Of a stretch of 64,000 nucleotides of DNA, positions 4,097 through 55,905 are shown piece by piece. The notes below the pieces were generated by a model. That model saw nothing but the letters and a program-made list of their open reading frames with translations. It had not been told where the DNA came from and searched no databases. Each line of letters begins with the position of its first letter. Positions within the stretch are counted from its first letter, which is position 1. The stretch is taken from NCBI RefSeq assembly GCF_000003195.3, contig NC_012870.2, forward strand, positions 37,168,377-37,232,376. Reading direction: 5' to 3'. The DNA comes from Sorghum bicolor (Eukaryota; Streptophyta; Magnoliopsida; Poales; Poaceae). A program made the translations under genes and the position numbers.

Positions 4097-4524
4097 ATGG
4101 CACTCATGGCGGAACTAGAACTGTACCCCAGCATGGTTTCTCTCATTTCTAAAGGCCCAGTCCCTATCTGTGACACAAAGGTATCGGTTGGGTTTACTCT
4201 AGGAAAGGTTCCTATTGGGCCATTGACTAGTTCATCACCAAAGTCTTGGCAAATTTCCAACAACACCTCTAGAGCTGCTACTTGGGTGCCCTCCCAAGGG
4301 GTTTGCTCATTAGACTCCACTATCCAACCTAGCCACTGTAGATTATTTGGACAAGCGGGAACTATAATTTGAACATCCACCCAAGGCAAAGACCCTGCAT
4401 TCTCCACCTCCCTCCAAGTATACTTAGGTGGTTCTTCATAGCCCACAGAGCTTAGCACCCTCCACAACAAGGTAGGAGTGCCAAACATGTCCAGAAAAGT
4501 TTCACTCGCATGTGGCACTGCCAT
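4027..4524 (-). pseudogene. Truncated chromovirus orf0 (element D)
   Basis: This minus-strand frame opens with an ATG preceded by a pyrimidine-rich ...ACTATAG, the same arrangement as the other orf0 copies. Residues 1 to about 140 match the N-terminal domain of orf0 in A and B: a TPTLLWRVL helix, EPPKYTW, a tryptophan-rich middle, then QTPWEGTQVAA and ICQDFGDEL. Similarity stops near position 4096, and the last 20-odd residues are read from GC-rich LTR sequence, so the coiled coil and acidic tail are lost. The protein function is unknown. The N-terminal pattern resembles a double-stranded-RNA-binding fold, which is inference. The protein is clearly diverged from A and B, so D represents another subfamily. 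Confidence 0.75.
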
Positions 4525-19937: not shown

Positions 19938-20654
19938 AAGTTCAGCATTATAAATGCAGCGTTTGTGTATTTAAAACAAAAGAGTTTTAAAATAAAATGG
20001 TGTAAAACAAATAATTAAGTTATGCCAGTGGTCGAATCCTCCTTGCCCACATAAGGACTCTAGGTGGCTATTTAAGTACTGACTTGGGGGGGGGGTTTAT
20101 TTATGCATCTCCGGCAATACTCAGGTATGGATGTGTGATGACCGCCCTATGCTACCCTGTGGTCTAATGGTGGAGGTAGCCTTCATATGTGAATTAGCCA
20201 CATGTGTCGCTAGATTTAAATTATGCAACGTCGCACCTACGCCCTGGTAAGTGTGAGCTGTGAGAGCATGATCGTCCAAACGGCGGTCTAGGGGAATGTT
20301 CGCGGTGGTTTTCTGGAGTGGTTACATGTCGAAACCATGGAACCACAAAAGAAAATTAATTGGGGAGTATTTAATTTCTCGGGTAGTTGTGGTGTCATTG
20401 TTTGTGCATGTTGGGCGTGTCCAAGCAATGTGCACTTAGTTTACTGCTTTCTTGAGTGATATTGGGAACTGTTGGGCTGAAATGAAGTTTTCTGCAGGTA
20501 CTCTAACAGCGCACGTGTAAACCGATAGTTATCGTATCGAGAGACGCACGTATGCCACCGTATATCCGTTAGAATATTAATTTTCTAAGTTTGTGAGGAC
20601 GTACGGTTTGTGCATGCATCATGTCGCATTCATACATACATTCTGTCTACCCCT
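19938..20654 (+). other. Element B leader, before insertion of C
   Basis: Noncoding leader. A run of nine G near 20087-20095 and a strong donor-like G|GTAAGTGTGAG (GT at 20247-20248) stand out. The leader is cut at 20654 by element C and resumes at 34772; bases 20650-20654 are CCCCT, the TSD of C. The equivalent intact leader is 54282-54819 in A. Confidence 0.8.
20247..20252 (+). promoter_or_regulatory. Candidate 5' splice donor in B leader
   Basis: GTAAGT preceded by CTG, matching the plant donor consensus. The same site and context occur in A (54324-54329) and, on the minus strand, in D (5069-5064). It is paired with YAG sites abutting the orf0 and gag start codons. Splicing is inferred, not observed. 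Confidence 0.5.
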
Positions 20655-23600
20655 TGTAACATCCCTGATGTTACGGTTACTAAAAACGGATCATGTCATC
20701 ATAAGCATTGCAAACCATAATTGTTAAAGCACAGTAGTATGCATCAACTTAAAATAAGTTTACTTTGATTGCTTGAGCTTAGGGAAGTAGAGTGTGCTTC
20801 TGTGGTGTGTTGTTGCTTGTGTGGTTGCTAAAACCCTAGGGTAAAAGATTTCCGAGAAAATGGGGGGGGAAAACCCTGATTTCTGGATCCTAGATTTGTC
20901 CCCTTTTGCTTAAGTCAAAAACTAAGCAAAATTTGAGGTTGAGTTCAAAAGCAAAGTTGTAGCTCTTGGCAAGATGTACAACTTTGGTGTTTTGAGTTTT
21001 TGAAGTTTCAACACAAAATTCAAAGTAATTTTGAAAATACAGATTTCCAGAAAGTGTCCCCTTTTCCAACTTAAATCCCCAATTCAAAATCCATTTGGAA
21101 TTTTGAAAAGTGGTCAACATGAAAGTTGTAGAGCACAAAAAGTTGAGCAACTTTCATGTTGGGAGTTTTTCAAGTTGTTATACAAAATCAAAAGTAATTT
21201 TGGAAATTCTGTTTTGCCCCAATTCAAAAATTTGGAATTTCTTTGGTTTGAGTTTGATTTTCAAACTGTCTGGCAAAATTAACCTATTTCCAGTGAGAAT
21301 CAGCTTGGGACACCTAAATATGATTTGTAGCTTGCAAAATTTGGCACAACTTTTGTTTTGGTGGAAATTTGTCTTTAGTTCAAATTTTGGTCGGATTTCA
21401 CAAAAAGACAAACTGAGTGGATGAGGCCGGCTACAGTGATCGGCAGGGGGGGTGCTCTGCCGCCGGGGCAGAGCCGCCTCCGCGCGCGCCGCCACGCAGC
21501 TGGCCACGCAGCTGCTTGCTGCTGTGCTTCGCGTGGACGTCCTCATCCGCGAACCGCCTTCTGTTGTGGGGATAAAGCCCCGAGTGGCCAGAGTCCCCTC
21601 TTCCTTTTCTTGAACCCCGACGCCGACGAGCTCCCTGCGCCTCTCCAATTCGCCTCACTCGCTGCCGTTTCAAGCCACCTGAGCACCCCAGCAGCTCCGC
21701 CGTGAGCCCCGCCACCGATTGCGCCCCCAAACACACGCTCTATCCTACCGTAGCTTCCACCCGAGCCGTTTCTCCCCCAACTCCGGCCGAGCGCCACCGC
21801 AAGCACGTCACCGTGGCCAGCTTCACCCCGCGCCTCCCCGCTGCTGTTTCTTGCTTCGTTGAAGTCACGGTGAGCTTCTGGTGCTGTTGCGCCGCTTACT
21901 TCACGCTCTACTCGCCTGAAGCGGCCGGCGTTGGTTCGGCCGCGACGGCCATCCGCCATGAGCGTGGACAGGGAGGGTAGGAGGGAGTAGAGGTGGTCTC
22001 GTGTGTCCTAGAGGTTGCGTGAGACGCTGGAGATGCTAACCCACCCCGCCGCGCAGGCCGGGAGCTCACCGGCGCGGAGCCGGAGCTCACCGGAGCGGTG
22101 GTGGGAGGTTGAAGACGCCTCTGACGGGCGGGACCCGCCCGTCAGTGGCCGCGTGAGAGAGAGCGCGCGCGGTCCGCGCGGGAGAGCACTCTCGGGCCGA
22201 CTTGGGCCGGATCCCAGCGGGCCGCCAGCGTGGCACAGTGCCCTTTTCTTTTTCTTTTTGTTTAAAAGTGCTTAATGTTTGAATTTGAATGGTGAATTCT
22301 GTGCTGATCCAAAAATAATGAGAATTTTTGTATAAACTCTCTGAAATATGTAGGATCCAAGAAAAATACTAGGTTCTGCTTTCTAATAGTTTGCAAGGAT
22401 ACAAAAATTGGCCCTTTTAATTAGCAAATAAAACTTGTATGATTTTTAATAATTTATTTGTATGTTCAAAAATCACCAAAAATTGTGGGGAGCCTCTAAA
22501 TATTATTCCCTGGCTCCACACAAAATTTGGTGGCATTTGGGTATTGTTAGATTAGAATACTAATAAACCCTTATTTAATACTTAAATAATAATTCCAAAA
22601 CCATTAATCAATAATTAATTAAGTTCTCATGATTAAGGTTGAATGATTTTGGGATTATGTGATGACCTGAGGTCATTGACCTTAATGACCTTTGGCATTT
22701 AATTATTGTTTGACCTTAATGCTTAATTATTGTCATTAGTAATTAATTAAGGTAAATAAGATTAATAATTAGTTAATTCAGGTTAATTATGAATTAAAAG
22801 AGATTTTATTTTACAGATGCAACCTCTTGGGTAAAAACAATAGGTTATTAAACAACTTTATTTATTGATTATTCTATATTGCATTGGGAAGAAAAATTGT
22901 ACTTGATTTGGCCCTTCTTGCATAATTGTCATATGCATATCATGAGCATTCATCATTTTGCGTATAGTGCACGTGACCGAAGGAGCGCCCGTTGAACCGA
23001 ACCCCGAGGTCGGTGCTCCGTTCGAGGAAGTCGGATCCGAGACTTGGGAAGTCTCCGAGGGTCCCTCTCTGCCCTGCAACCAAGGCAAGCCCCGGATGCA
23101 TTAACCCCTCCTTGAATGTTTTGAATCTTTTATCACTTGTAAATCGAAAATGCTGCATTATGTAGTTAAGAATTGGGTTAACCTACTTGCTGCATTTACT
23201 ACCTTGATATCTGTTATCCTGTCCTTGACACCTGTTTATTTTAAAACTGCGTAGCGATGCTTAGCCCTGCTACTAGATAGGTTTTCAAACAAGAAAGTTT
23301 GAAGGGTTGTTGTGGGATACACTTATGATCAATGATGTTTCAATTTGAGACCGGTCGGTGGACTTGCTCTAAGAATGGAGTCTTAAAGTAGTGTCTCCGA
23401 CTGTGTCGATTAAGGACCGGTCCGTTGATGGCTTGCTGGGTTGAGAATTTATAGTACTAGCCACTTGCCTTCGGTAAGCCCGGTCTTGTGATCCCTCGAC
23501 GCGAACAGCTACTCGCGCACTGGGAGTGGAAAGATGGCGAGAGTAGTGTGTACCCACCTTACGGATCTGAGATGACCGGAAAACATCTAGATCGGCTGTA

Positions 23601-24690
23601 GGATGGTGGAGTACTGTGCTCTCGGGTGCCGCGAACCTGGTCAAATTTGGGGAGAGCTTGATTTGGGTTGACATATGCAAGATTTAGTTCTACATATGTC
23701 GGGTGGTTAGGAACTCCAGCTGGATTGCTAAGCGATTCGAATCGTCGTTGCTCCCCGATTGGGAGACTCAATTCCTTCGACCCTCTTCGTAGCTAAATAT
23801 GCAACTAAGTGATAAAATGAGAAAAAGGAAAATGTCTCATGAGGTTCGGATCCCAATTCCCGGACTCATAGCGACATGAAGCTATGGCCATCAATAAATA
23901 ATACTTAATGATAGGACTAGGAACTCACGGATTCGTCTGTGGGATACAACCAGTTAGACTATCCTCGAATTCCTCTGCCTCTGCGAGGGAGGAGTTCAGA
24001 GTAAAACTTGAAAATAAGGATGCACTACTAGTAAGCTTTTACGCAAAACACTTTGGCTCCTTGCCCAGCCACCCCTTGTCTACCCTAAGCCTGCATCCCT
24101 AAATTCTCCTCTTTTCCCGTCGGATAAGTCTTGTTGAGTACTCCCGTACTCAGGGTTTCAATACCCCTATTGCAGGTGAAGCACAGGAGCCGACTTGTTT
24201 CGGACCCTGTTGTGTGACCGTCGTCGAGGTTGACGACGAAGAAGAGTGAGCGTGACCCATGGGCAGGGTCTGTAATTTATTCTGTCTATATTAAAGTTTC
24301 AGTTGCTCCGCTGGACCAGGCTTGTAATAACACTCTACTATTTGGAAGAACTCCTTTTGTAAATTAAGTTATGTAATACTTCCGCTGTTTCACTCTGAAA
24401 TATTATTTTGGTCTGTGTTGTCGAGTTACTGCTTTATCTTCGCAACGAATGATCCTGGTGTTAAGGTGGCCACTTGCTATCCTGTAAGGGCGAGAAGAAA
24501 CAGTTCTCGTTGTTTGACCATTACCAGTGGTCAGGACGAGCCAGCTTGGTACGCCACGGGTAGCAGTGGAATGAGCGTCCAGCATGCTCATCGGACTTCT
24601 AAAGTGGGAGGACTCCCGACATCACCGTCAGAGGTCCTTAGGACAATGGCAGGTGTCGGTGGGCCCAAACACTTAGGAGGTTCTGCCACA
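20655..24690 (+). repeat. 5' LTR of element C (4036 bp)
   Basis: It starts TGTAACATCCCTGATGTTACGG and ends GGTTCTGCCACA. By eye it differs from 30720-34766 at only about 20 positions plus one 11-base indel, so the insertion is recent. The ends form an 8-base inverted repeat (GTAACATC/GATGTTAC at 20656-20674). The GC-rich block at about 21420-22240 gives overlapping open frames on both strands that I reject as genes. Confidence 0.95.
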
Positions 24691-25062
24691 GCTGGTATCA
24701 GAGCATTCGTTGCTAAGATGACTGCTGAACCTTTTGAAAAACTTCAAAAATTCGTTTGGAACTAATACTATGAACCTGCCTATTTTGAGTCCAAGTGCTT
24801 AGTCCTAACCTACCCCTGTCTATAGGCTTTCTTAGAATTTTTGAAGTGGTATGGAGGAGCAACATAAAGTATTGCCCTATGTTGTAGAAGTTTAAAGTAA
24901 TAATGTTACGAATTGTTAGTAGGAATCGTAAGTTCGTGCATGCATCATGATGTATTAACTGATTAAGTTCCTTCCTCCTTGTTGGGTTGGGTGAATAGAA
25001 TCAATCCTATTCTTGCTAACCTTTAAGGTCTCTCTTACTAATCTAAACTTACCCTCTACAGG
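24691..25062 (+). other. Element C leader
   Basis: Noncoding leader from PBS to orf0. It has a donor-like C|GTAAGT at 24928-24933 and, before orf0, CTAAC/ACTAAT branch-point-like sequence and a pyrimidine-rich tract ending ACAG at 25061, one base before the ATG. If spliced, the intron would be about 134 bases. Confidence 0.7.
24693..24704 (+). other. Primer-binding site of element C
   Basis: TGGTATCAGAGC is the canonical 12-base match to the 3' end of plant initiator-Met tRNA, two bases after the LTR. Confidence 0.9.
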
Positions 25063-25767
25063 ATGGCTCGTCAGAAGCAGACCCCGCGTAAGCGGACCGG
25101 TCCAAAAGGAGTTCCCCGACATCAGCTAGCTCCACGCAGTGATCAAGCCAGTAGTAGCCGTTCACCGCCTCAGCAGGAGGTGGACAGGTTGTCCGCCGAG
25201 TTGACTGAGGTGATGAGAGAGAGAATGTATAATGTTATGGAGATTGGCAAACTTAAAGCTCAACTGGCCAAAGAAAAACAAGCTACGGAAAATTGTGAAG
25301 CTATGTTGTCCCGGATGGTGGAGGAGCGGAATGCAGCCATTGCCCGAGAGGAAGAAGCTAGGAGCACCCATAGGCATGAGCTAACTAGGATGAACGCAAA
25401 GTTGGGCAAGGCAAAGTATCTTAAGGATTTGTATGTGAAGATGGCGGCCACGGTCACCGCACAACGGGATGTCGCGTGGCAACGAGAGGACCAGCTCCAG
25501 CTGGAGAAACTGGAGCTGGCACATCACTTGGATACAGTCAATGACTTGGCTATGCAGTATCGTGATATTGCATTTGATCTGTATCATCAACTCCATCCAC
25601 CTCCCGGCGAAGGAGAAATGGATACAGATGGCGAGTTGGCAGATGATGGAGAACCCGACCCAGGCCTCAGTGATGAAGAGGAGTCCGACCCCGATGACCA
25701 CAACCCAGGGGGTAATCAAGATGATGGCAATGACGACCCGGGCTACAGTTCTGGCCACACCGATTAG
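25063..25767 (+). CDS. orf0 protein with histone-H3-like N terminus, coiled coil and acidic tail
   Basis: An open frame of 234 residues upstream of gag in element C; no enzymatic domain is visible. Residues 2-15 (after Met removal, ARQKQTPRKRTGPK) match the histone H3 tail ARTKQTARKSTGGK at ten of fourteen positions, keeping K4, R8, K9 and K14. A one-residue shift then leads to PRHQLA against H3 PRKQLA. Residues about 38-190 are charged and heptad-like, predicting a coiled coil. Residues about 193-234 are strongly acidic (DEEESDPDD). There is no histone fold. The start is chosen because it is the first ATG after an acceptor-like CTACAG and puts the H3-like stretch at the N terminus. The coiled coil ends in YHQLHPPP, comparable to NNLLHPIP in the A/B orf0. 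Function is unknown; chromatin mimicry is inference. Confidence 0.8.
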   Translation: MARQKQTPRKRTGPKGVPRHQLAPRSDQASSSRSPPQQEVDRLSAELTEVMRERMYNVMEIGKLKAQLAKEKQATENCEAMLSRMVEERNAAIAREEEARSTHRHELTRMNAKLGKAKYLKDLYVKMAATVTAQRDVAWQREDQLQLEKLELAHHLDTVNDLAMQYRDIAFDLYHQLHPPPGEGEMDTDGELADDGEPDPGLSDEEESDPDDHNPGGNQDDGNDDPGYSSGHTD

Positions 25768-25980
25768 TTCGGTGAAACCGAGGGCAACGTCGTTGTAGGG
25801 GTCTTAGCTTGCCGTAGTGGGGTTCGGGTTTGTCATATAAGTTTTCTTTTGGTTTGAGAAGTTGAACCTGTTTACTCTGGGTGTGTCGAACTAATGTTTA
25901 ATAAGTGAATGAAAGAATGTAAGATATGTTCTGGGTTATGAATTTTACGTGATAACAGGTATCTACGATTCTTGTAACAG
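25768..25980 (+). other. Spacer between orf0 and gag-pol in C
   Basis: A 213-base noncoding gap. It ends CTTGTAACAG directly abutting the gag ATG, an acceptor-like site. No ribosome-entry signal is recognisable. Confidence 0.6.
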
Positions 25981-28900
25981 ATGCCGATGCGTACTCGCGG
26001 ATCCGATGGGGCTGGGACATCCCAGGGAGGGGATGATATCCCCAACCCTCCACCTGCTCCACCTTCTTTGGCTGACGCCATTGCTGTCTTGTTAAGTGCC
26101 ACAACTGACAATGCTCGCTTGCTGCGCGAGCTAGCACAGCGTCAACCACACCCTGCTCCAAACTTTAGGGCATCGCGCAACGGGGATGGAGAGGCTCGGT
26201 ATGTGGATTTTACCGAGACCAGGCCCCCGGTGTTCACTAAGGCCGATGAGCCTTTAGAAGCAGACGACTGGCTCCGAACCATGGAGCATAAGTTCAGTTT
26301 GATTCAGTGTTCAGAAACTCAGAAACCCTTATTTGCAGCTCAGCAGCTTCGGGGAGCTGCAGGTGCCTGGTGGGAGAACTTTTTAGCTATTCAAGCTCCC
26401 GGACACCAAGTTACCTGGACCGAGTTTAGGGACGCGTTTCGCGCCCACTACATCCCCGAAGGGCTCATGGCCATGAAGGCCGAAGAGTTTCTCGCCTTGC
26501 AGCAAGGCGATAAGAGTGTTATGGAATACGTGGCAAGGTTTAATCATCTCTCTCAATATGCCACGGATCATGTGAACACTGACAGAAAGAAGAAAGCCTG
26601 TTTCATGCGTGGTCTAAATACTAAACTTCAGACCATGATGACCACTTGCCAAAATGCTACTTTCTATGAGGCGGTAAATATTGCCATCGCCTCTGAGGAA
26701 AAGAATAGGAAACATAAGGAAGCCAAGAAGAAGGCTGCTTCCTCTTCTTTCTCTGGTCGCGGTCAAAAGCGCCAGAGGATCATTTATCATCCACAGGGCC
26801 ACGGACGTTTCCAAGCGCCGTCATCTTATCGTGGTCCTTTCTCCCCTCCACAGTACAGACCCGGGCAGCAGGTATACTCTCGACCTACTGCCATCGCTTT
26901 TGCACCACGCCAGCCGAACGCCCCGGGTGTTCGCCCTATTGCTCCGCCCAGCCACAATTACCCTTGCTTCAATTGTGGTAAGCCTGGGCATTTCTCTAAA
27001 GAGTGCCCTTTTCCCCGCCAAACCAACCCTACCTTTCCAAGGCCACCTATGGGCCAACCCCAGCCGAGTCAGTTCAGAACTGGGGTTCAAAAAGGGCAAC
27101 AGGTACAGAAAGGTAGACCGGTAAAGAAGACAGGGCAAGTCTTCCATACTGAAGTGGAGACAATTCCAGAGGGTGAACCAGTGATGATGGGTACGTTTCC
27201 TGTTGCGAAGCATCCTGCTTTAATGCTCTTTGATTCTGGTGCATCTCATACATTTATCAATCGCACCTTTGTGTTAAAGCATGACATACCCATTGGGGAA
27301 ACGCAAGATCATTTTTATATACAGTCGCCAGGAGGACGGCTGATGTCTAAAGAAATGGTTCACCAAGTACCCATCGAATTTGGTGGACACAATTTTCCTA
27401 CTAGCATGATTGTTCTTAAGGACCAAGAGATTGATGTCATCTTAGGCATGAACTGGATGGCGCAACGAGGGGTTGTGCTAGACACTTTGCACCGAACTAT
27501 TAAAATCCCATTGCCCAATGAGAATTCCTACTTGCTAATCCAATTAGTTACTCCCAAACGGACAATTGGGCAAGTTCATGCCGCTAATGTGTCTGAAGTT
27601 AAAGATATCCCGGTAGTTCGAGATTTCCCGGATGTATTTCCTGAAGACTTACCAGGTCTGCCTCCGGACCGGGATGTACAATTCAGTATAGAATTGAAAC
27701 CAGGAACGGCCCCAATATCTCGAAGGGCCTACAGAATGGCACCGAAAGAGCTGGCCGAATTAAAAGCCCAATTACAAGAGTTGTTGCAGAAGGGTTTTAT
27801 TCAGCCCAGTTCTTCTCCATGGGGTTGCCCAGCCTTGTTTGTGAAGAAGAAAGATCAGACATTAAGGCTGTGTGTCGACTATCGTCCTCTAAATGAGGTG
27901 ACGATTAAGAACAAGTACCCTTTGCCCCGCATTGACTTATTGTTTGACCAGCTAGCTGGGGCCAAAGTGTTCTCAAAAATTGATTTGAGATCAGGGTACC
28001 ACCAAATTAAAATTAGGCCGGAAGATGTACCCAAGACAGCTTTTACAACCCGTTATGGGCTGTATGAATACTTGGTGATGTCGTTTGGGTTGACCAACGC
28101 ACCGGCCCATTTTATGTACCTGATGAACTCTGTCTTCATGCCAGAACTAGACAAATTTGTGGTCGTCTTCATCGATGACATCTTGATTTACTCCAAAACT
28201 AAGAAGGAACATGCTGAACATTTGAGAATCGTGCTGACCCGTCTCAGGGAGCATCAGCTATATGCCAAGTTCAGCAAATGTGAGTTCTGGCTGGACAAAG
28301 TCCATTTCCTGGGTCATGTATTATCAGCGGAAGGAGTCGCTGTAGACCCAGGCAAGGTAGAAGATGTGTTGAATTGGAAACCCCCGACTACGGTACATGA
28401 GGTCCGTAGTTTTCTGGGCATGGCGGGATATTACCGTCGTTTTATCCCGGACTTTTCCAGAGTCGCCAAACCAATCACAACCTTGCTCAAAAGTCAAACA
28501 AAATTTGTTTGGTCACCCCAATGTGAGCAAGCTTTTCAGACTCTGAAAAGGTTGTTGACAACTGCACCTGTCTTAGCCCAGCCAGATATTGAAAAACCCT
28601 TTGATGTATATTGTGACGCATCAGGAATCGGGTTAGGCTGTGTGCTGATGCAGGAGGGTCGCGTAATTGCATATGCTTCCAGGCAACTCAAACCTCATGA
28701 AGAGAATTACCCGACCCATGATCTCGAACTAGCCGCCGTGGTACATGCATTGAAGATCTGGCGTCATTATTTGTTGGGAAACACATGTCATCTATATACA
28801 GATCACAAAAGCTTGAAGTATATCTTTACTCAAGCCGAGCTTAACATGCGCCAGCGAAGGTGGCTAGAACTAATTAAAGACTACGACCTTGAGGTGCATT

Positions 28901-30513
28901 ATCACCCTGGCAAGGCAAATGTAGTAGCGGATGCCCTCAGTCGTAAGGCTCACTGTAATTGCTTAACAGTGACGCCTAGGGATATAACTTTGTGCCAAGA
29001 GCTAGAGAACTTAGGAATAGAAATGATTTCCCAAGGAAGCCTTTCCAATCTAAAGATCGATTTCAATCTCGAGGCTCAAATCATAAAGGCACAAAAAGAA
29101 AACAAAGGCATGAGACATCTTAAAGAGAAGATTTCTAATAGAGCACCCACAGACTTAAAGGTGGATGATGCGGGAGTAATCTGGTTCAAGAACCGGTTAG
29201 TGGTTCCAAGGGTACCTGAGCTACGTCAGCAAATCCTGGATGAAGCTCATACCACGAGGTATTCCATTCATCCGGGAAGCAATAAGATGTATCAGGACCT
29301 GAAGCAAAGGTTTTGGTGGACAAAAATGAAGATAGAAATAGCTCGCTATGTGGCCCAGTGTGACACCTGCCGAAAGGTCAAAGCCATTCATCTCAAATCC
29401 GCTGGGGAGTTGCAACCTTTGCCTATCCCCGCATGGAAATGGGATGACATAAGTATGGATTTCATAGTAGGATTGCCCAAGACGGCCAAGGGCTTTGATT
29501 CCATTTGGGTCATAGTAGATCGTCTCACCAAAACAGCACATTTTCTGCCGATAAAGCTATTGTATCCTGCCTCCACCTATGCTAAGATTTATTTCGACCG
29601 TATCCTAAGTCTGCATGGGGTGCCAAAGACAATAGTGTCAGATAGAGGCACACAATTTGTCTCCCAATTCTGGAAATGTTTACATAAGTCCCTGGGCACT
29701 AAGCTTTTATACAGCACAGCCTACCACCCTCAAACTGGTGGGCAAACTGAAAGGGTAAATCAAACCCTAGAAGATCTATTAAGATCCTGTGCCCTGAATT
29801 TTCCAGATAAGTGGGATGACTGCTTGCCTCTAGCAGAATTTTCCTACAATAATAGTTATCAAGAGAGTATCAAAATGGCTCCCTTTGAGGCACTGTATGG
29901 TCGCCGATGTCGAACTCCGTTACACTGGTCAGAACCTGGAGAAAGATGGTTCTTCGGAGTTGACTTAGTGAAAGAGACTGAGAACAAAGTGAAACAAATC
30001 CAAAATAACTTGAAAGTTGCTCAGTCCCGACAGAAAAGTTACGCTGATAAAAGACGTCGACCATTAAAGTTCGCCAAAGGTGATCATGTGTATTTGAAAG
30101 TATCCCCAATGAAAGGAGTAAATCGTTTTGGTGTTAAAGGCAAGTTAGCGCCTCGTTACATTGGTCCATTTCCAATTATTGACCGATGTGGGCAAGTCGC
30201 TTACCGCCTTAAACTGCCCGAACGATTATCCGGGGTACATAATGTGTTCCATGTGTCTCAACTGAAAAAGTGTCTTCGGGTACCAGATCGAGTTCAAGAT
30301 ATTGAAGATGTAAAGCTTGAACCAGATCTAACTTATTCGGAATATCCTATCCGAGTACTGGATCAAAAAGCTAGAGTTACTCGAAGGACGACCACTAAAT
30401 GGTATAAAGTACAATGGAGTCAGCACTCTGAAGAAGAAGCCACCTGGGAATCTGAAGATTACTTGCTAGAGAATTTTCCTGAATTCCATGCTTCTCTTCA
30501 GGACAATATATGA
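25981..30513 (+). CDS. gag-pol: Gag-Pol polyprotein with chromodomain (element C)
   Basis: A single open frame of 1510 residues. Gag comes first, with [14 protein letters not shown] and the zinc knuckle [14 protein letters not shown] (C329-C342). Protease has LFDSGASH (D418). Reverse transcriptase runs about 560-800 with FIDDIL (D732, D733). RNase H has [10 protein letters not shown] (D879). The integrase zinc site is H1090, H1097, C1127, C1130, and the core triad is D1160, D1221, E1257 with the expected 35-residue D-E spacing. A chromodomain lies at about 1456-1502 ([16 protein letters not shown]). The chromodomain lacks the first and third cage aromatics, as in most plant Tekay-type (group II) chromodomains. 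Gag and pol share a frame with no stop or shift, so the ratio of products must be set by processing or RNA choice. The frame is fully intact, consistent with recent activity. Confidence 0.95.
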
Positions 30514-30681
30514 TAACCAGAGGATGTACTCTAGTGAAGAAACAGAGTCGCCAAAGCCATGTACTTAATGTACATATATGCTTATAATGAAGTAATTTTT
30601 CCCCAATTCCTTGCCTTATGGAAAAGTTGAAGATGAAAGAGTTTTGACAAATTTCCTTTTCCATTACTTACCCTAAGGTTT

Positions 30682-30701
30682 TAAATCTCGGGGACGAGAT
30701 T
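30682..30701 (+). promoter_or_regulatory. Stem-loop before PPT of element C
   Basis: AAATCTCG-GGGA-CGAGATTT is a perfect 8-base inverted repeat a few bases upstream of the polypurine tract. Equivalent hairpins occur in B and in the Athila-like G. Confidence 0.6.
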
Positions 30702-30706
30702 TCTTT

Positions 30707-30719
30707 AAGGGGGAAGGGC
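30707..30719 (+). other. Polypurine tract of element C
   Basis: AAGGGGGAAGGGC abuts the 3' LTR start, in the position needed for plus-strand priming. Confidence 0.85.
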
Positions 30720-33700
30720 TGTAACATCCCTGATGTTACGGTTACTAAAAACGGATCATGTCATCATAAGCATTGCAAACCATAATTGTTAAAGCACAGT
30801 AGTATGCATCAACTTAAAATAAGTTTACTTTGATTGCTTGAGCTTAGGGAAGTAGAGTGTGCTTCTGTGGTGTGTTGTTGCTTGTGTGGTTGCTAAAACC
30901 CTAGGGTAAAAGATTTCCGAGAAAATGGGGGGGGAAAACCCTGATTTCTGGATCCTAGATTTGTCCCCTTTTGCTTAAGTCAAAAACTAAGCAAAATTTG
31001 AGGTTGAGTTCAAAAGCAAAGTTGTAGCTCTTGGCAAGATGTACAACTTTGGTGTTTTGAGTTTTTGAAGTTTCAACACAAAATTCAAAGTAATTTTGAA
31101 AATACAGATTTCCAGAAAGTGTCCCCTTTTCCAACTTAAAAGCCCAATTCAAAATCCATTTGGAATTTTGAAAAGTGGTCAACATGAAAGTTGTAGAGCA
31201 CAAAAAGTTGAGCAACTTTCATGTTGGGAGTTTTTCAAGTTGTTATACAAAATCAAAAGTAATTTTGGAAATTCTGTTTTGCCCCAATTCAAAAATTTGA
31301 ATTTCTTTTGAATTGAGTCTGATTTTCAAACTGTCTGGCAAAATTAACTTATTTCCAGTGAGAATCAGCTTGGGACATCTAAATATGATTTGTAGCTTGC
31401 AAAATTTGGCACAACTTTTGTTTTGGTGGAAATTTGTCTTTAGTTCAAATTTTGGTCGGATTTCACAAAAAGACAAACTGAGTGGATGAGGCCGGCTACA
31501 GTGATCGGCAGGGGGGGTGCTCTGCCGCCGGGGCAGAGCCGCCTCCGCGCGCGCCGCCACGCAGCTGGCCACGCAGCTGCTTGCTGCTGTGCTTCGCGTG
31601 GACGTCCTCATCCGCGAACCGCCTTCCGTTGTGGGGATAAAGCCCCGAGTGGCCAGAGTCCCCTCTTCCTTTTCTTGAACCCCGACGCCGACGAGCTCCC
31701 TGCGCCTCTCCAATTCGCCTCACTCGCTGCCGTTTCAAGGCACCTGAGCACCCCAGCAGCTCCGCCGTGAGCCCCGCCACCGATTGCGCCCCCAAACACA
31801 CGCTCTATCCTACCGTAGCTTCCACCCGAGCCGTTTCTCCCCCAACTCCGGCCGAGCGCCACCGCAAGCACGTCACCGTGGCCAGCTTCACCCCGCGCCT
31901 CCCCGCTGCTGTTTCTTGCTTCGTTGAAGTCACGGTGAGCTTCTGGTGCTGTTGCGCCGCTTACTTCACGCTCTACTCGCCTGAAGCGGCCGGCGTTGGT
32001 TCGGCCGCGACGGCCATCCGCCATGAGCGTGGACAGGGAGGGTAGGAGGGAGTAGAGGTGGTCTCGTGTGTCCTAGAGGTTGCGTGAGACGCTGGAGATG
32101 CTAACCCACCCCGCCGCGCAGGCCGGGAGCTCACCGGCGCGGAGCCGGAGCTCACCGGGGCGGTGGTGGGAGGTTGAAGACGCCTCTGACGGGCGGGACC
32201 CGCCCGTCAGTGGCCGCGTGAGAGAGAGCGTGCGCGGTCCGCGCGGGAGAGCACTCTCGGGCCGACTTGGGCCGGATCCCAGCGGGCCGCCAGCGTGGCA
32301 CAGTGCCCTTTTCTTTTTCTTTTTGTTTAAAAGTGCTTAATGTTTGAATTTGAATGGTGAATTCTGTGCTGATCCAAAAATAATGAGAATTTTTGTATAA
32401 ACTCTCTGAAATATGTAGGATCCAAGAAAAATACTAGGTTCTGCTTTCTAATAGTTTGCAAGGATACAAAAATTGGCCCTTTTAATTAGCAAATAAAACT
32501 TGTATGATTTTTAATAATTTATTTGTATGTTCAAAAATCACCAAAAATTGTGGGGAGCCTCTAAATATTATTCCCTGGCTCCACACAAAATTTGGTGGCA
32601 TTTGGGTATTGTTAGATTAGAATACTAATAAACCCTTATTTAATACTTAAATAATAATTCCAAAACCATTAATCAATAATTAATTAAGTTCTCATGATTA
32701 AGGTTGAATGATTTTGGGATTATGTGATGACCTGAGGTCATTGACCTTAATGACCTTTGGCATTTAATTATTGTTTGACCTTAATGCTTAATTATTGTCA
32801 TTAGTAATTAATTAAGAATTAATTAAGGTAAATAAGATTAATAATTAGTTAATTCAGGTTAATTATGAATTAAAAGAGATTTTATTTTACAGATGCAACC
32901 TCTTGGGTAAAAACAATAGGTTATTAAACAACTTTATTTATTGATTATTCTATATTGCATTGGGAAGACAAATTGTACTTGATTTGGCCCTTCTTGCATA
33001 ATTGTCATACGCATATCATGAGCATTCATCATTTTGCGTATAGTGCACGTGACCGAAGGAGCGCCCGTTGAACCGAACCCCGAGGTCGGTGCTCCGTTCG
33101 AGGAAGTCGGATCCGAGACTTGGGAAGTCTCCGAGGGTCCCTCTCTGCCCTGCAACCAAGGCAAGCCCCGGATGCATTAACCCCTCCTTGAATGTTTTGA
33201 ATCTTTTATCACTTGTAAATCGAAAATGCTGCATTATGTAGTTAAGAATTGGGTTAACCTACTTGCTGCATTTACTACCTTGATATCTGTTATCCTGTCC
33301 TTGACACCTGTTTATTTTAAAACTGCGTAGCGATGCTTAGCCCTGCTACTAGATAGGTTTTCAAACAAGAAAGTTTGAAGGGTTGTTGTGGGATACACTT
33401 ATGATCAATGATGTTTCAATTTGAGACCGGTCGGTGGACTTGCTCTAAGAATGGAGTCTTAAAGTAGTGTCTCCGACTGTGTCGATTAAGGACCGGTCCG
33501 TTGATGGCCTGCTGGGTTGAGAATTTATAGTACTAGCCACTTGCCTTCGGTAAGCCCGGTCTTGTGATCCCTCGACGCGAACAGCTACTCGCGCACTGGG
33601 AGTGGAAAGATGGCGAGAGTAGTGTGTACCCACCTTACGGATCTGAGATGACCGGAAAACATCTAGATCGGCTGTAGGATGGTGGAGTACTGTGCTCTCG

Positions 33701-34766
33701 GGTGCCGCGAACCTGGTCAAATTTGGGGAGAGCTTGATTTGGGTTGACATATGCAAGATTTAGTTCTACATATGTCGGGTGGTTAGGAACTCCAGCTGGA
33801 TTGCTAAGCGATTCGAATCGTCGTTGCTCCCCGATTGGGAGACTCAATTCCTTCGACCCTCTTCGTAGCTAAATATGCAACTAAGTGATAAAATGAGAAA
33901 AAGGAAAATGTCTCATGAGGTTCGGATCCCAATTCCCGGACTCATAGCGACATGAAGCTATGGCCATCAATAAATAATACTTAATGATAGGACTAGGAAC
34001 TCACGGATTCGTCTGTGGGATACAACCAGTTAGACTATCCTCGAATTCCTCTGCCTCTGCGAGGGAGGAGTTCAGAGTAAAACTTGAAAATAAGGATGCA
34101 CTACTAGTAAGCTTTTACGCAAAACACTTTGGCTCCTTGCCCAGCCACCCCTTGTCTACCCTAAGCCTGCATCCCTAAATTCTCCTCTTTTCCCGTCGGA
34201 TAAGTCTTGTTGAGTACTCCCGTACTCAGGGTTTCAATACCCCTGTTGCAGGTGAAGCACAGGAGCCGACTTGTTTCGGACCCTGTTGTGTGACCGTCGT
34301 CGAGGTTGACGACGAAGAAGAGTGAGCGTGACCCATGGGCAGGGTCTGTAATTTATTCTGTCTATATTAAAGTTTCAGTTGCTCCGCTGGACCAGGCTTG
34401 TAATAACACTCTACTATTTGGAAGAACTCCTTTTGTAAATTAAGTTATGTAATACTTCCGCTGTTTCACTCTGAAATATTATTTTGGTCTGTGTTGTTGA
34501 GTTACTGCTTTATCTTCGCAACGAATGATCCTGGTGTTAAGGTGGCCACTTGCTATCCTGTAAGGGCGAGAAGAAACAGTTCTCGTTGTTTGACCATTAC
34601 CAGTGGTCAGGACGAGCCAGCTTGGTATGCCACGGGTAGCAGTGGAATGAGCGTCCAGCATGCTCATCGGACTTCTAAAGTGGGAGGACTCCCGACATCA
34701 CCGTCAGAGGTCCTTAGGACAATGGCAGGTGTCGGTGGGCCCAAACACTTAGGAGGTTCTGCCACA
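30720..34766 (+). repeat. 3' LTR of element C (4047 bp)
   Basis: TGTAACATCC...TCTGCCACA, nearly identical to the 5' LTR. The main difference is an extra 11 bases at about 32813-32830, a tandem copy of an AATTAATTAAG-type unit. The CCCCT target duplication follows at 34767-34771. Confidence 0.95.
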
Positions 34767-34771
34767 CCCCT

Positions 34772-34858: not shown

Positions 34859-35944
34859 ATGGACGCACCCGCTTCACCCCGTCCCAGTGACACTTTCTTG
34901 CACGAGTTTGGTACTCCTACCCTGCTCTGGAGAGTGTTACGGACTGTTGGGTATACTGAGCCACCTCAGTATTCTTGGTGGGAGATGGAGAGCACAGGGG
35001 GGATACAGTGGTTTGCTGTGCAGGGAGTTGTCCCTCCGCATGGGGACAAGCCTGCATGGACAGGCTGGACTTGTAGCTCAGATGGGCAGACTCCCTGGGA
35101 GGCAGCTCAGGTTGCAGCCCAGACTATCCTGCTCGATATCTGTCAGAGGTGTGGTGATGAGCTGACGGGAGGACCAGCAGCTTCCATTCCCAGTGCTGAC
35201 CCAGCAGCAGCGGAGTGGAAACAGGCTGACGGTTGTGCTTTGGTCCGAGGCAGGGGAGAGAGGGCTGAGAGTTCTAGTCCTGCTATGAGTGCTATGATGG
35301 CTGTGCTCAAGCTGATCAGTCAGCGAGAGGGCACCTATCCACAGGTGATGGTGGCTGTTCGCAGGGCCCAGGAGATGCAGCGGAAGGCTGAAAAGCGTGC
35401 TCGCAAGTTTCACAAGCAAGCTAGACTCCTGGAGCAAGCTCAGAAGGACCGCAATGACTGGGAGGACATTGCGGAGTACCGTAGGCAGCAGTGGGTGAAG
35501 GCCATTAGGGAGAGAGATCATAAGTAGGATCAGATGAGTCAGTTAGCTAGAGAGAGGGAGACCCTTCAGGAGCGCTTGTTGCAGCTCACCCGTGAGAGGG
35601 ATACTGCACTCCGCGTGTCGGAGAACAGGCGCCGAGCATGGGAGATGCACCGAGTTCAGTCGCTTGAGCGGGAGAACTATCTGCAGGATCAGATTGAGGC
35701 TGGTCTTGTGGAGATTCACCGTCTCAACAACTTGCTACACCCTATTCCTCGCCCTATACCCGTGTATCCAGAGGTAAGACCTCAGGTGATTGTGGCCGAT
35801 GATGATGGTATGGAGGTCGATGGACCAGCAGCGGCTGCACCACCTTTGCACGAGGACGTGGAGGACGAGGAGCTTGAGCCGGTTAGCGACGAGGATGGAG
35901 AGGCGATCTTCGACGCCGACTCGGACGACGAGCCTAGAGTGTAG
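34859..35944 (+). pseudogene. orf0 of element B (one premature stop)
   Basis: A 361-residue frame with one TAG at codon 223 (35525-35527), where A has CAG. Residues about 14-110 form a compact tryptophan-rich domain (TPTLLWRVL, EPPQYSWWE, QWFAVQGVV, QTPWEAAQVAAQTILLDIC) with an alpha-beta-beta-beta-alpha look reminiscent of double-stranded-RNA-binding domains. Residues about 157-302 are a strongly charged coiled coil. Residues about 312-361 are acidic (HEDVEDEELEPVSDEDGE). There is no H3-like start, unlike orf0 of C, but the coiled-coil end and acidic tail are comparable. An in-frame ATG lies upstream at 34805, but 34859 abuts the acceptor-like CCACAG and agrees with A. Function is unknown. 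Confidence 0.8.
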
Positions 35945-36470: not shown

Positions 36471-38055
36471 TGTTGACGGTGGATATACCATAGAAATCCA
36501 CATACAAAACACCGTCAACATGCCTCGGTTGCAAGGGGAAACGACATGACATGAACATATTTTATCCATAACTAGTTCCACTTGTACTCTTAGCTTGTTT
36601 ATGCAGGAACAACAAATTCAAGACATTATTTGACAAAGCCAACATCAGAATCATCAAGAGGAGATCGAGGGGACAACAGGTGACACCCTGGGCCCACAGG
36701 GAGGGGGTCGCCCGACCCCTCTTTGGTGGGACCCAGGTGTGCCACCTAGTCCACCGACATAAGGGACCCCTGTGGACACTGCTGGTGGGCCCAGAGGCCC
36801 AGAAGTGGGGTCGCCCGACCCCACATCAAAGGCGGTTCCAGGGTCGGTGGCCTCCCACCGACCTTCCCCACATGTCCCACATGTTGATTTGCCCCTGCCG
36901 TTGATCAAATGGCGGTTGTGAGGTCGGTTTGATCCAAGGGTGGAGAGAAGATGTCACGCGGATCGATGACGTGGCGATGGAGTAACCCCTACTCCATCTC
37001 CCTCTATAAAAGGCAGCCTCCATCCTTCATTTCAAGTGTGCAATTCCAAGGCCAAGTGCATTACAAGTTCCAAGCATACAAGTAGAGTAGTAGTTAGTCT
37101 AGAGTGGGAGTTAGAGTCGAGTCGAGCGAAGCTCGGGGTCTCCGGAGTCGTCTTCTGGAGAGTCTAGTATAGCTCTTGTACCTTTCTACTTTTGTAAGAC
37201 TTTCCTTTTATTAATATATTATTCTTACTTTACTTTACTGAGTTCTTACTTAGTGCAAGTCTTTTAGTCTTGTTGTGCATTTACTTTAGTAATATAGTTG
37301 TCTTAGTGAAGTTAGTGACCTGTAACCACTCCTGTGTGTGCATCATCCTCCTATCTTGTATAGGAGCTCTAGCTAGCTACAACTAGTTAGCGTTGTAGGA
37401 TTAAGTGTGAGCGTGGTGCTCATACTTAAGATTACCTTTGATTACCGCTGGCTTGAACGGAAAGTAGGAGCGCACTCCCTAGTAGGTGACAGATCGTGGG
37501 CGGCATTAGGTTCTCCTCACGTACAGGCTAGTTCTTAAAAGGTAAGGCGTCCATAAGCCCAATAGTCGCTTTCGGTAAGGGGTTAGGTGAAAAACCTTCT
37601 AAGCGTCTTACCAGCTCGGCTATCCCTCGCACACAGTTAGTAAGGCTCTAGCGTAGTTAAGACAATTATCTATTAAAGTAAGTCACAGAAGTCAAGTTAG
37701 ATACATAGGAGTCCTTTACTCACTCGTTGTCCTCCCACCTAGCTAACTCTACCATTTACCTTTAGCATAGGACCTTGGATTCACCACTACCCTTTCTATT
37801 CGTTATTTACCACCCTTATTCACTAGTTGATACTAGATAACTCAAGGAATCTCATTCCCCTTTTTGTTAAACACACTTAGCCGCTTTCCCTTGGGAAAAT
37901 ATAAATTACGATACCTTGGAATACTCCTTGGTGAAGTGCTACAGCGGTACATTCTGTACGCTTGCGGAATTATCCAATAGTAAATAGAGTTACACTACCA
38001 GGGCATTTCTGGCGCCGTCGCCGATATCCGGTGGTTGCGTTAAGAAGTGTCAACA
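36471..38055 (+). repeat. 5' LTR of element G (1585 bp)
   Basis: TGTTGACGGTGG...GTGTCAACA. The first 11 bases recur inverted at 36510-36520 (CACCGTCAACA), giving a terminal hairpin. GGGTCGCCCGACCC motifs occur near 36708 and 36815. A TGACGTGGC box (36967) and TATAAAA (37005) mark the promoter. Confidence 0.95.
36967..37011 (+). promoter_or_regulatory. LTR promoter of G: ACGT box and TATA box
   Basis: TGACGTGGC at 36967-36975 has the ACGT core bound by plant bZIP factors. TATAAAA at 37005-37011 follows about 30 bases later. Both are repeated in the 3' LTR (44589 and 44627). Promoter use is inferred from position. Confidence 0.65.
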
Positions 38056-44092: not shown

Positions 44093-45677
44093 TGTTGACG
44101 GTGGATATACCATAGAAATCCACATACAAAACACCGTCAACATGCCTCGGTTGCAAGGGGAAACGACATGACATGAACATATTTTATCCATAACTAGTTC
44201 CACTTGTACTCTTAGCTTGTTTATGCAGGAACAACAAATTCAAGACATTATTTGACAAAGCCAACATCAGAATCATCAAGAGGAGATCGAGGGGACAACA
44301 GGTGACACCCTGGGCCCACAGGGAGGGGGTCGCCCGACCCCTCTTTGGTGGGACCCAGGTGTGCCACCTAGTCCACCGACATAAGGGACCCCTGTGGACA
44401 CTGCTGGTGGGCCCAGAGGCCCAGAAGTGGGGTCGCCCGACCACACATCAAAGGCGGTTCCAGGGTCGGTGGCCTCCCACCGACCTTCCCCACATGTCCC
44501 ACATGTTGATTTGCCCCTGCCGTTGATCAAATGGCGGTTGTGAGGTCGGTTTGATCCAAGGGTGGAGAGAAGATGTCACGCGGATCGATGACGTGGCGAT
44601 GGAGTAACCCCTACTCCATCTCCCTCTATAAAAGGCAGCCTCCATCCTTCATTTCAAGTGTGCAATTCCAAGGCCAAGTGCATTACAAGTTCCAAGCATA
44701 CAAGTAGAGTAGTAGTTAGTCTAGAGTGGGAGTTAGAGTCGAGTCGAGCGAAGCTCGGGGTCTCCGGAGTCGTCTTCTGGAGAGTCTGGTATAGCTCTTG
44801 TACCTTTCTACTTTTGTAAGACTTTCCTTTTATTAATATATTATTCTTACTTTACTTTACTGAGTTCTTACTTAGTGCAAGTCTTTTAGTCTTGTTGTGC
44901 ATTTACTTTAGTAATATAGTTGTCTTAGTGAAGTTAGTGACCTGTAACCACTCCTGTGTGTGCATCATCGTCCTATCTTGTATAGGAGCTCTAGCTAGCT
45001 GCAACTAGTTAGCGTTGTAGGATTAAGTGTGAGCGTGGTGCTCATACTTAAGATTACCTTTGATTACCGCTGGCTTGAACGGAAAGTAGGAGCGCACTCC
45101 CTAGTAGGTGACAGATCGTGGGCGGCATTAGGTTCTCCTCACGTACAGGCTAGTTCTTAAAAGGTAAGGCGTCCATAAGCCCAATAGTCGCTTTCGGTAA
45201 GGGGTTAGGTGAAAAACCTTCTAAGCGTCTTACCAGCTCGGCTATCCCTCGCACACAGTTAGTAAGGCTCTAGCGTAGTTAAGACAATTATCTATTAAAG
45301 TAAGTCACAGAAGTCAAGTTAGATACATAGGAGTCCTTTACTCACTCGTTGTCCTCCCACCTAGCTAACTCTACCATTTACCTTTAGCATAGGACCTTGG
45401 ATTCACCACTACCCTTTCTATTCGTTATTTACCACCCTTATTCACTAGTTGATACTAGATAACTCAAGGAATCTCATTCCCCTTTTTGTTAAACACACTT
45501 AGCCGCTTTCCCTTGGGAAAATATAAATTACGATACCTTGGAATACTCCTTGGTGAAGTGCTACAGCGGTACATTCTGTACGCTTGCGGAATTATCCAAT
45601 AGTAAATAGAGTTACCCTACCAGGGCACTTCTGGCGCCGTCGCCGATATCCGGTGGTTGCGTTAAGAAGTGTCAACA
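44093..45677 (+). repeat. 3' LTR of element G (1585 bp)
   Basis: Same length as the 5' LTR with about six base differences by eye (for example near 44442, 44789, 44970, 45001 and 45615-45628). TSD ACAGG follows at 45678-45682. Confidence 0.95.
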
Positions 45678-54281: not shown

Positions 54282-54819
54282 TGTCGCTAGATTTAAATTA
54301 TGCAACGTCGCACCTACGATCTGGTAAGTGTGAGCTGTGAGAGCATGATCGTCCAAACGGCGGTCTAGGGGAGTGTTCGCGGTGGTTTTCTGGAATGGTT
54401 ACATGTCAAAACCACGGAACCACGAAAGAAACTTAATTGGGGAGCATTAAATTCTCGGGTAGCTGTGGTGTCATTGTTTGTGCATGTTGGGCATGTCCGA
54501 GCAATGTGCACTTAGTTTACTGCTTTCTTGAGTGATATATTGGGAACTGTTGGGCTGAAATGAAGTTTTCTGTAGGTACTCTAACAGCGCACGTGTAAAC
54601 CGATAGTTATCGTATCGAGAGACGAATGTATGCCACCGTATATCCGTTAGAATATTAATTTTCTAAGTTTGTGAGGACGTACGGTTCGTGCATGCATCAT
54701 GTCGCATTCATACATACATTCTGTCTACTCCTTCCCTTACAATGTCGTCCCTTTTAATTAAATAAATGTTGCTTAAACTAATCCTCTTTTACCCATGGTA
54801 TTCCTATTCCTTTCCACAG
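54282..54819 (+). other. Element A leader, second part
   Basis: Noncoding. It contains the donor-like G|GTAAGTG (GT at 54324-54325) and ends CCTTTCCACAG immediately before the orf0 ATG at 54820. A putative intron 54324-54819 would be 496 bases. A donor joined to the gag acceptor (56266) would remove orf0. Confidence 0.7.
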
Positions 54820-55905
54820 ATGGACGCACCCGCTTCACCCCGTCCCAGTGACACGTTCTTGCGCGAGTTTGGCACTCCTACCCTGCTCTAGAGAGTGTTA
54901 CAGACTGTCGGGTATACTGAGCCACCTCAGTATTCCTGGTGGGAGTTGGAGGGCACGGGAGGGATACAGTGGTTTGCTGTGCAGGGAGTTGTCCCTCCAC
55001 ATGGGGACAAGCCTGCATGGACAGGCTGGACTTGTAGCTCAGATGGGCAGACTCCCTGGGAGGCAGCTCAGGTTGCAGCCCAGACTATCCTTCTCGATAT
55101 CTGTCAGAGGTGTGGTGATGAGCTGATGGGTGGACCAGCGGCCTCCATTACCCGTGCTAACCCAGCAGCAGCGGAGTGGAAGCTGGCTGATGGTTGTGCT
55201 TTGGTTCGAGGCAGGGGATAGAGAGCTGAGAGTTCTAGTCCTGCTATGAGTGCTATGATGGCTGTGCTCAAGCTGATCAGTCAGCGAGAGGACACCTATG
55301 CACAGGTGATGGTAGCTGTTCGCCGAGCTCAGGAGATGCAACGGAAGGCTGAAAAGCGTGCTCGCAAGTTTCGCAAGCAAGCTAGACTCCTGGAGCAAGC
55401 TCAGAAGGACCGCAATGACTGGGAAGACATTGCGGAGTACCGTAGGCAGCAATGGGTGATGGCCATTAGAGACAGAGATCATAAGCAGGATCAGATGAGT
55501 CAGTTAGCTAGAGAGAAGGAGACAGTGCAAGAGCGCTTGGTGCAGATCACTCGTGAGAGGGACACTGCACTCCGTGTGTCGGAGAACAGGCGTAGAGCAT
55601 GGGAGATGCACCGAGTTCAGTCGCTTGAGCGGGAGAACTATCTGCAGGATCAGATTGAGGCTGGTCTTGTGGGGATTCACTGCCTCAACAACCTGCTACA
55701 CCCTATTCCTCGCCCTATACCCGAGTATCCAGAGGTGGGACCTCAGGTGATTGTGGCCGATGATGATGGTATGGAGGTCGATGGACCAGCGGCAGCTGCA
55801 CCACTTTTGCACGAGGACGTGGAGGACGAGGAGCTTGAGCCTGTTAGCGACGAGGATGGAGAGGCGATCTTCGATGCTGACTCGGACGAAGAGCCTGTAG
55901 TGTAG
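54820..55905 (+). pseudogene. orf0 of element A (two premature stops)
   Basis: Collinear with orf0 of B over 361 codons. Stops occur at codon 24 (TAG at 54889-54891; B has TGG) and codon 134 (TAG at 55219-55221; B has GAG). Codon 223, the site of the B stop, is CAG here. The N-terminal tryptophan-rich domain, coiled coil (about 157-302) and acidic tail are all recognisable and otherwise well conserved with B. Because the stops in A and B are at different codons, the common ancestor had an open orf0. Confidence 0.8.

Follow-up and report, generated by a model that had tools for sequence, protein, structure and literature searches.

Why does a retrotransposon protein of Sorghum bicolor begin like the tail of histone H3, and what might such a beginning do? 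The question is raised by orf0 (25063..25767, forward strand; 234 aa, ATG start), which lies upstream of gag-pol in a complete Ty3 chromovirus, here called element C (20655..34766, forward strand). The window, i.e. the whole stretch of 64,000 nucleotides analysed, corresponds to positions 37,168,377 to 37,232,376 of the forward strand of contig NC_012870.2 (assembly GCF_000003195.3), and all coordinates are given within it. A first-pass annotation of this DNA had proposed that the N-terminus of orf0 mimics the H3 tail. H3 mimicry at the sequence level was strongly supported by the comparisons below, and we hold with moderate confidence that the N-terminus is a conserved, K9-centred H3 tail mimic whose partners would be host H3K9 writers or readers.

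Direct counting confirmed the likeness described in the annotation: after the initiator Met, 10 of 14 residues of the orf0 start MARQKQTPRKRTGPKGVPRHQLAPR (25063..25137, forward strand; net charge +8) were equal to those of H3 (ARTKQTARKSTGGK) from residue 1 onwards, and 10 of 13 were equal when the Met was counted. HMMER also printed PRHQLA of orf0 against PRKQLA of H3 after a one-residue insertion, as had been noted, and the places equivalent to K18 and K23 are held by H and R. The chance of 10 matches in 14 at this fixed place was 5e-7, 7e-8 and 7e-10 when the composition was taken from the 14-mer, the first 25 residues and the whole orf0, respectively. All three figures are post hoc, because the match had already been seen when H3 was chosen. 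None of 400,000 permutations of the orf0 14-mer reached 10 of 14. Since H3 was chosen in this way, the test on the family outweighs the chance figures for the window copy.

Relatives of orf0 were collected in a first search (58 proteins among 386 candidates), a profile search (445 relatives, 120 of them listed) and a tail search with the relative P0045 (three proteins, two of them new). Their starts included MAKTKITARKSTGPHGVPRHQLAPR, MARTKKTPRKSTGPKGVPRHQLAPR, MPPRTRKTARKSTGPIGVPRHQLAPR, MARTKQTPRKKTGPKGVPRHHLAAK and MARTKQTARKKTGPKGVPRHQLAPR. Some divergent relatives were closer to H3 than the window copy, P0155 (MARTKQTARKKTG) and P0051 (MARTKITARKSTG) agreeing at 12 of 13 residues each; for the start MARTKQTARKKTGPKGVPRHQLAPR the count, Met included, was 12 of 13 H3 residues, compared with 10 of 13 in the window copy. 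The alignment of related starts, which the annotation had suggested as a check, showed the tail to be kept across divergent relatives, and the H3-like start is, in these aligned proteins, a feature of the family and not of the window copy alone. Between the six subfamilies, identity was 0.59-0.81 in the tail and 0.18-0.40 in the body (94 of 98 aligned proteins). Families that have lost the tail would be missed, because distant relatives are reached through 5-residue words in common with the query, and these probably often lie in the tail. Scans of viral contigs (with the profile A2, built on 22 relatives, with the window orf0 and with P0102) and of genome contigs (with A2) confirmed no DNA of relatives.

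The set comprised 154 proteins (153 found and the window copy), of which 105 were kept, those in which GVPRHQLAPR carries no more than 3 changes and is preceded by 9 or more residues. Among the 49 dropped, 41 begin downstream of the tail, either because the gene caller chose such a start or because the contig ends there (P0007 and P0089 open with unrelated residues), and seven begin inside it, either at the S10 place (P0046, P0047, P0064) or at the L of QLAPR (P0080, P0081, P0084, P0085). The three starts at a Met in the S10 place are probably gene calls at an inner Met. The remaining protein, P0044, was dropped for motif changes, and its tail is present with T6, R8 and K9.

In H3 numbering, T6 and K9 were invariant (105/105 each) and R8 (99/105), G12 (95/105), T11 (92/105) and S10 (91/105) were largely kept, these and the following counts not being independent as many of the 105 rows are close relatives, and those within GVPRHQLAPR being conditioned on the motif filter. 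A7 was found in 83 of 105 (P in 21), T3 in 85 of 104 and R2 in 68 of 102 (K in 20). The K4 place held K in 43 and R in 61 of 104, the A1 place A in 38 and P in 55 of 102, and Q5 was present in only 8 of 105. Counting the Met, the K9 place was residue 10 in 45 proteins, residue 11 in 41 and residue 5 or 7 in three, and it lay further along in 16 whose called starts are longer. P0154, found later, kept K9 and had K in the R8 place. The constant part of the aligned tails is T6-x-R8-K9 followed by GVPRHQLAPR. The annotation had listed the equivalents of K4, K9 and K14 among the agreeing positions of the window copy; across the relatives it is K9 that is truly conserved, the K14 place carrying K, H or I and the K4 place being R in most.

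The HMM comparison with H3 that the annotation had also suggested was run on the family. Against the PDB, A2 found histone H3 at E = 2.7e-5, and the best 60 of its 154 matches were all labelled H3, H3 variant, Cse4 or H3/CENP-A chimera. A tail-only profile of nine rows matched an H3 chain of 25 residues at 9.1e-8 and then a longer H3 variant chain at 1.4e-6, with the same kinds of label among the best 60 of its 145 matches. As its rows were hand-chosen and include the most H3-like members P0155, P0051 and P0102, the tail-only profile flatters the match and the A2 figure is the fairer one.

What follows the tail is not predicted to be histone-like. In an AlphaFold2 model built from a 74-row alignment (mean pLDDT 79.4), residues 1-35 of orf0 were disordered, residues 36-177 (25168..25593) formed a single long helix and residues 178-234 (25594..25764) were again disordered, with net charges of +8 (residues 1-25), -3 (36-177) and -21 (178-234). 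The mean pLDDT was 90-98 in every ten-residue block from 41 to 180, and the predicted architecture is tail, helix and acidic end. There was no histone fold in the modelled body; Pfam matched no histone family in the window orf0, nor did one appear among those listed for 74 members. What was found is a conserved H3-like sequence in a non-histone protein, as expected of a histone mimic. Pfam gave scattered weak matches to orf0 and its relatives, mostly to coiled-coil or helical families; those to chorismate mutase (CM_2, 18.6 bits against a cut-off of 27) and ATG16 were rejected as coiled-coil likeness.

The context of the start codon bears on whether the H3-like Met is used. The orf0 ATG is immediately preceded by a pyrimidine-rich stretch ending CAG/G (25043..25062, forward strand), a candidate 3' splice acceptor, and the gag ATG by a second candidate acceptor (ttcttgtaacag/ATG; 25961..25980, forward strand). 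All seven orf0 or gag start codons examined (those of element C at 25063 and 25981 and of the two sister copies at 34859, 36305, 54820 and 56267 on the forward strand, and that of the orf0 at 4524 on the reverse) directly follow a pyrimidine-rich stretch and AG, five of the seven being independent (the two sister copies are close) and the criterion having been set after they were seen; counting both strands of the window, 72 of 2547 ATGs (2.8%) have this context. Between the LTR (long terminal repeat) and orf0 are eight upstream ATGs with short open reading frames (ORFs), and one candidate splice donor at 24928, scoring 6 of 8. Alternative splicing, we infer, yields separate RNAs for orf0 and gag-pol, each translated from its first ATG; the H3-like Met would therefore come first.

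Element C has TG...CA ends and is flanked by a perfect 5-bp target duplication, CCCCT (20650-20654 and 34767-34771). LTR alignment, with inspection of the ends, placed its 5' LTR of about 4.0 kb at 20655..24690 and its 3' LTR at 30720..34766 (both forward strand). As the LTRs are 99.26% identical (4048 columns, 17 mismatches, 3 gap openings), the element is young, roughly 0.16 million years at a substitution rate of 1.3e-8 per site and year. The primer binding site TGGTATCAGAGC (24693..24704, forward strand) is of the tRNA-Met type, presumably the complement of initiator tRNA-Met, and a purine-rich tract precedes the 3' LTR. The element has two intact ORFs, orf0 and gag-pol (25981..30513, forward strand; 1510 aa). 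In the latter, Pfam found gag, zinc knuckle, protease, reverse transcriptase (RT), RNase H and integrase in the order of Ty3/gypsy chromoviruses, with a terminal chromodomain at the integrase end (residues 1459-1501; 30355..30483, forward strand). The Pfam Chromo score was 25.0 bits, just below the cut-off of 25.1, and chromodomains in the PDB were matched at E 0.0085-0.1.

Tekay chromodomains are described by the motifs EEXTWEXE and (K/R)-X-(L/T)-R-X-(k/r) (PMC3350952). EEATWESE in gag-pol fits the first; for the second, the best stretch is RVTRRT, a partial fit with T at the last position against the lower-case k/r, and on these motifs the element is called Tekay-like. RIRE8 and Retrosat2 are reported to have LTR ends TGTCACACCC, with LTRs of about 3 kb or more and ORF0 followed by ORF1 in the family (PMC3485330). 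Compared by description only with Retrosat2, RIRE3 and RIRE8, element C has LTRs of about 4.0 kb and an ORF0, yet its LTR starts TGTAACATCC.

A sister family in the window, whose RT is 85% identical to that of element C, carries in the same slot an orf0 without the H3 tail. The copies of this orf0, a type with a front like a double-stranded RNA-binding domain (dsRBD), lie at 34859-35527 (forward strand; ending early, stop 35525-35527), at 54820-55905 (forward strand; with stops within the N-terminal part) and at 4524-4027 (reverse strand). The copy at 34859 was modelled with the order alpha-beta-beta-beta-alpha and had dsRBD matches; no such front was present in the model of the element C orf0, where this part is disordered. 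Between the bodies of the two orf0 types, hhalign gave weak likeness (probability 17.5% and 22.2%), and BLASTP with shuffled and reversed controls gave better support with certain relatives, chiefly S3-type ones (the MARTKKTPRKSTG-like subfamily), so the sister rod appears similar in part to the element C orf0 body. Element C itself has apparently inserted into a sister-element copy, a little less than 90 bp upstream of where that copy's orf0 starts, and pieces of 20205-20655 match 54282-54733. Two direct repeats (36471-36770 and 44093-44392), identical over 300 bases and 7.6 kb apart, flank the ORFs of a further element, which has probably inserted recently into the gag of the sister.

The functional steps of the mimic, all of which we infer, could run as follows. 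As an accessory protein, probably nuclear, orf0 would lose its Met (a predicted removal) and expose its tail as H3 does; through its long helix, presumably a coiled coil, it would form multimers that present several tails at once, and the acidic end may hold basic partners. The tail would then be bound, or methylated at K9, by host SUVH4/5/6, CMT2/3 or ADCP1-like proteins, as a pseudo-substrate or bait. The most likely effect would be a blunting of the H3K9me-dependent silencing of the element and, less likely, the element's particle would be tethered to H3K9 writers or readers at chromatin. In the sister family the dsRBD-like front would be directed at small RNAs, another layer of this defence, which would make orf0 a modular anti-silencing protein. 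Plant transposons are silenced in large part by H3K9 methylation, with which DNA methylation is coupled. An anti-silencing bait or pseudo-substrate, displayed multivalently on a coiled coil, is favoured because of this role, because the geminivirus protein TrAP inhibits the H3K9 methyltransferase KYP and because the sister carries a dsRBD-like front.

Several observations weigh against an H3 mimic and have to be set beside the profile results. Searched alone against the PDB, the window orf0 reached H3 only at E 0.3, behind chorismate mutase at 0.079; P0051 alone gave nothing at E <= 0.01; and with P0123 alone H3 came at 0.86, after other chains that are for the most part coiled-coil or helical. 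The H3 likeness is visible through profiles only, not through single-sequence PDB searches. The sister family, moreover, does without the tail. The mimic proposed in the annotation, with its putative function, passes part of the refuting condition set there, in that relatives keep the start, some of them closer to H3 than the window copy; it is qualified by the tail-less sister. The main rival, which we regard as rather unlikely, takes the tail for an H3-type nuclear import signal of an importin-5 or importin-4 type route, by which orf0 would enter the nucleus on its own or together with the particle of the element, the likeness at K9 having no signalling role. The PRxQLA stretch of H3 contacts importins, and the orf0 tail is basic (+8 in 25 residues). 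Cytoplasmic H3 is reported to rely mainly on importin-5 (PMC9560165), and grass Tekay 5' aORF proteins are reported as predicted nuclear (PMC11728184); import signals, however, usually tolerate K/R exchange, yet K9 and T6 are kept in 105 of 105 proteins while K4 swaps with R, and H and R stand in the places of K18 and K23. That the likeness reflects descent or convergence without mimicry is improbable. On this view a captured or convergent tail, basic and disordered, would bind RNA, DNA or acidic partners and be kept for that, or for an RNA-level constraint (splice acceptor, nearby signals), which is conceivable with a candidate acceptor directly before it. Basic character in general, however, would not call for T6 and K9 in all 105 proteins, and the match is to the H3 protein, starting at residue 1 as in H3.

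Two further rivals concern the partner. There is a slim chance that the tail addresses the K4 side, serving LSD1-type demethylases (LDL1/2, FLD) as a pseudo-substrate or PHD fingers as a ligand. SNAIL1 is reported to bind LSD1-CoREST by H3 mimicry (PMC5663869), and R2 (or K), T6 and R8 are kept in orf0; against this, the tail is one residue longer before K9 in 41 of 105 proteins, which is hard for a reader of a free N-terminus, and a K4-centred function is weaker because K4 is often R and Q5 rarely Q in relatives. The invariant T-x-R-K block points to the K9 side rather than the K4 side. It is also quite unlikely that the tail is read within the element, orf0 occupying the integrase chromodomain as an internal H3 peptide and keeping it off chromatin until integration. 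Element C encodes both parts, a histone-like linker inside a reader protein is known from BAZ2B (PMC5663869), and HMMER aligns a Y of the window chromodomain, with a gap of one residue, to the first of the cage tyrosines of Clr4, so that part of the cage may remain. Group II chromodomains, however, are reported to be without Y24 and usually without Y48 (PMC3350952), the window domain has H opposite Y48, and the sister element lacks the tail. Binding by the integrase's own chromodomain, which the annotation had offered as an option, thus becomes less likely, and a host partner is the likelier one because of the H at the third cage place and the ambiguous first.

Beyond the K9-centred mimic with a host partner, we tentatively suggest that a plant chromovirus lineage captured or evolved an H3 tail and has retained it as a front module of orf0 that can be exchanged for the dsRNA-binding module of sister elements, with one module attacking the H3K9me/DNA methylation loop and the other small RNAs. 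If so, a retrotransposon copy of the very tail that bears the silencing mark would be a direct counter-move to host silencing, and would provide a function for ORF0 proteins, which have had none established.

The orf0/5' aORF as such is known, and an H3-like tail on it is without a description found in the open-access literature: no H3-like tail in a retrotransposon was described among the matches listed, which cover titles and abstract openings and leave most subscription papers outside. One mouse paper (PMC2861705) holds both ARTKQTARKS and the word retrotransposon in its text. Grass Tekay elements (Retrosat2, RIRE3, RIRE8, FRetro3, maize Tekay and sorghum Sb7) likewise have an extra ORF upstream of gag-pol, reported as divergent and predicted nuclear, with LTRs of about 3 kb or more in Retrosat2, RIRE3 and RIRE8 (PMC3485330, PMC11728184); the word histone does not occur in the main texts of these two papers. 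Metabolic enzymes have been proposed for ORF0 (PMC3485330), and the weak dsRBD-like structure noted for the maize and sorghum 5' aORF (PMC11728184) fits the sister family, not the element C orf0. Among plant parasite proteins, geminivirus TrAP acts on the H3K9 methyltransferase KYP by binding and inhibiting its catalytic domain, no H3-like tail being mentioned in the accessible text of that report (PMC4606454). G9a and SNAIL1 are non-histone proteins with H3-like stretches, as is orf0, but are host proteins and not encoded by mobile elements (PMC5663869). Influenza NS1 is likewise a parasite protein whose H3-tail-like stretch engages host chromatin proteins; that stretch is C-terminal and tied to H3K4 recognition (PMC12937675, PMC5663869), whereas that of orf0 is N-terminal, in its natural place, about 25 residues long, K9-centred and family-wide.
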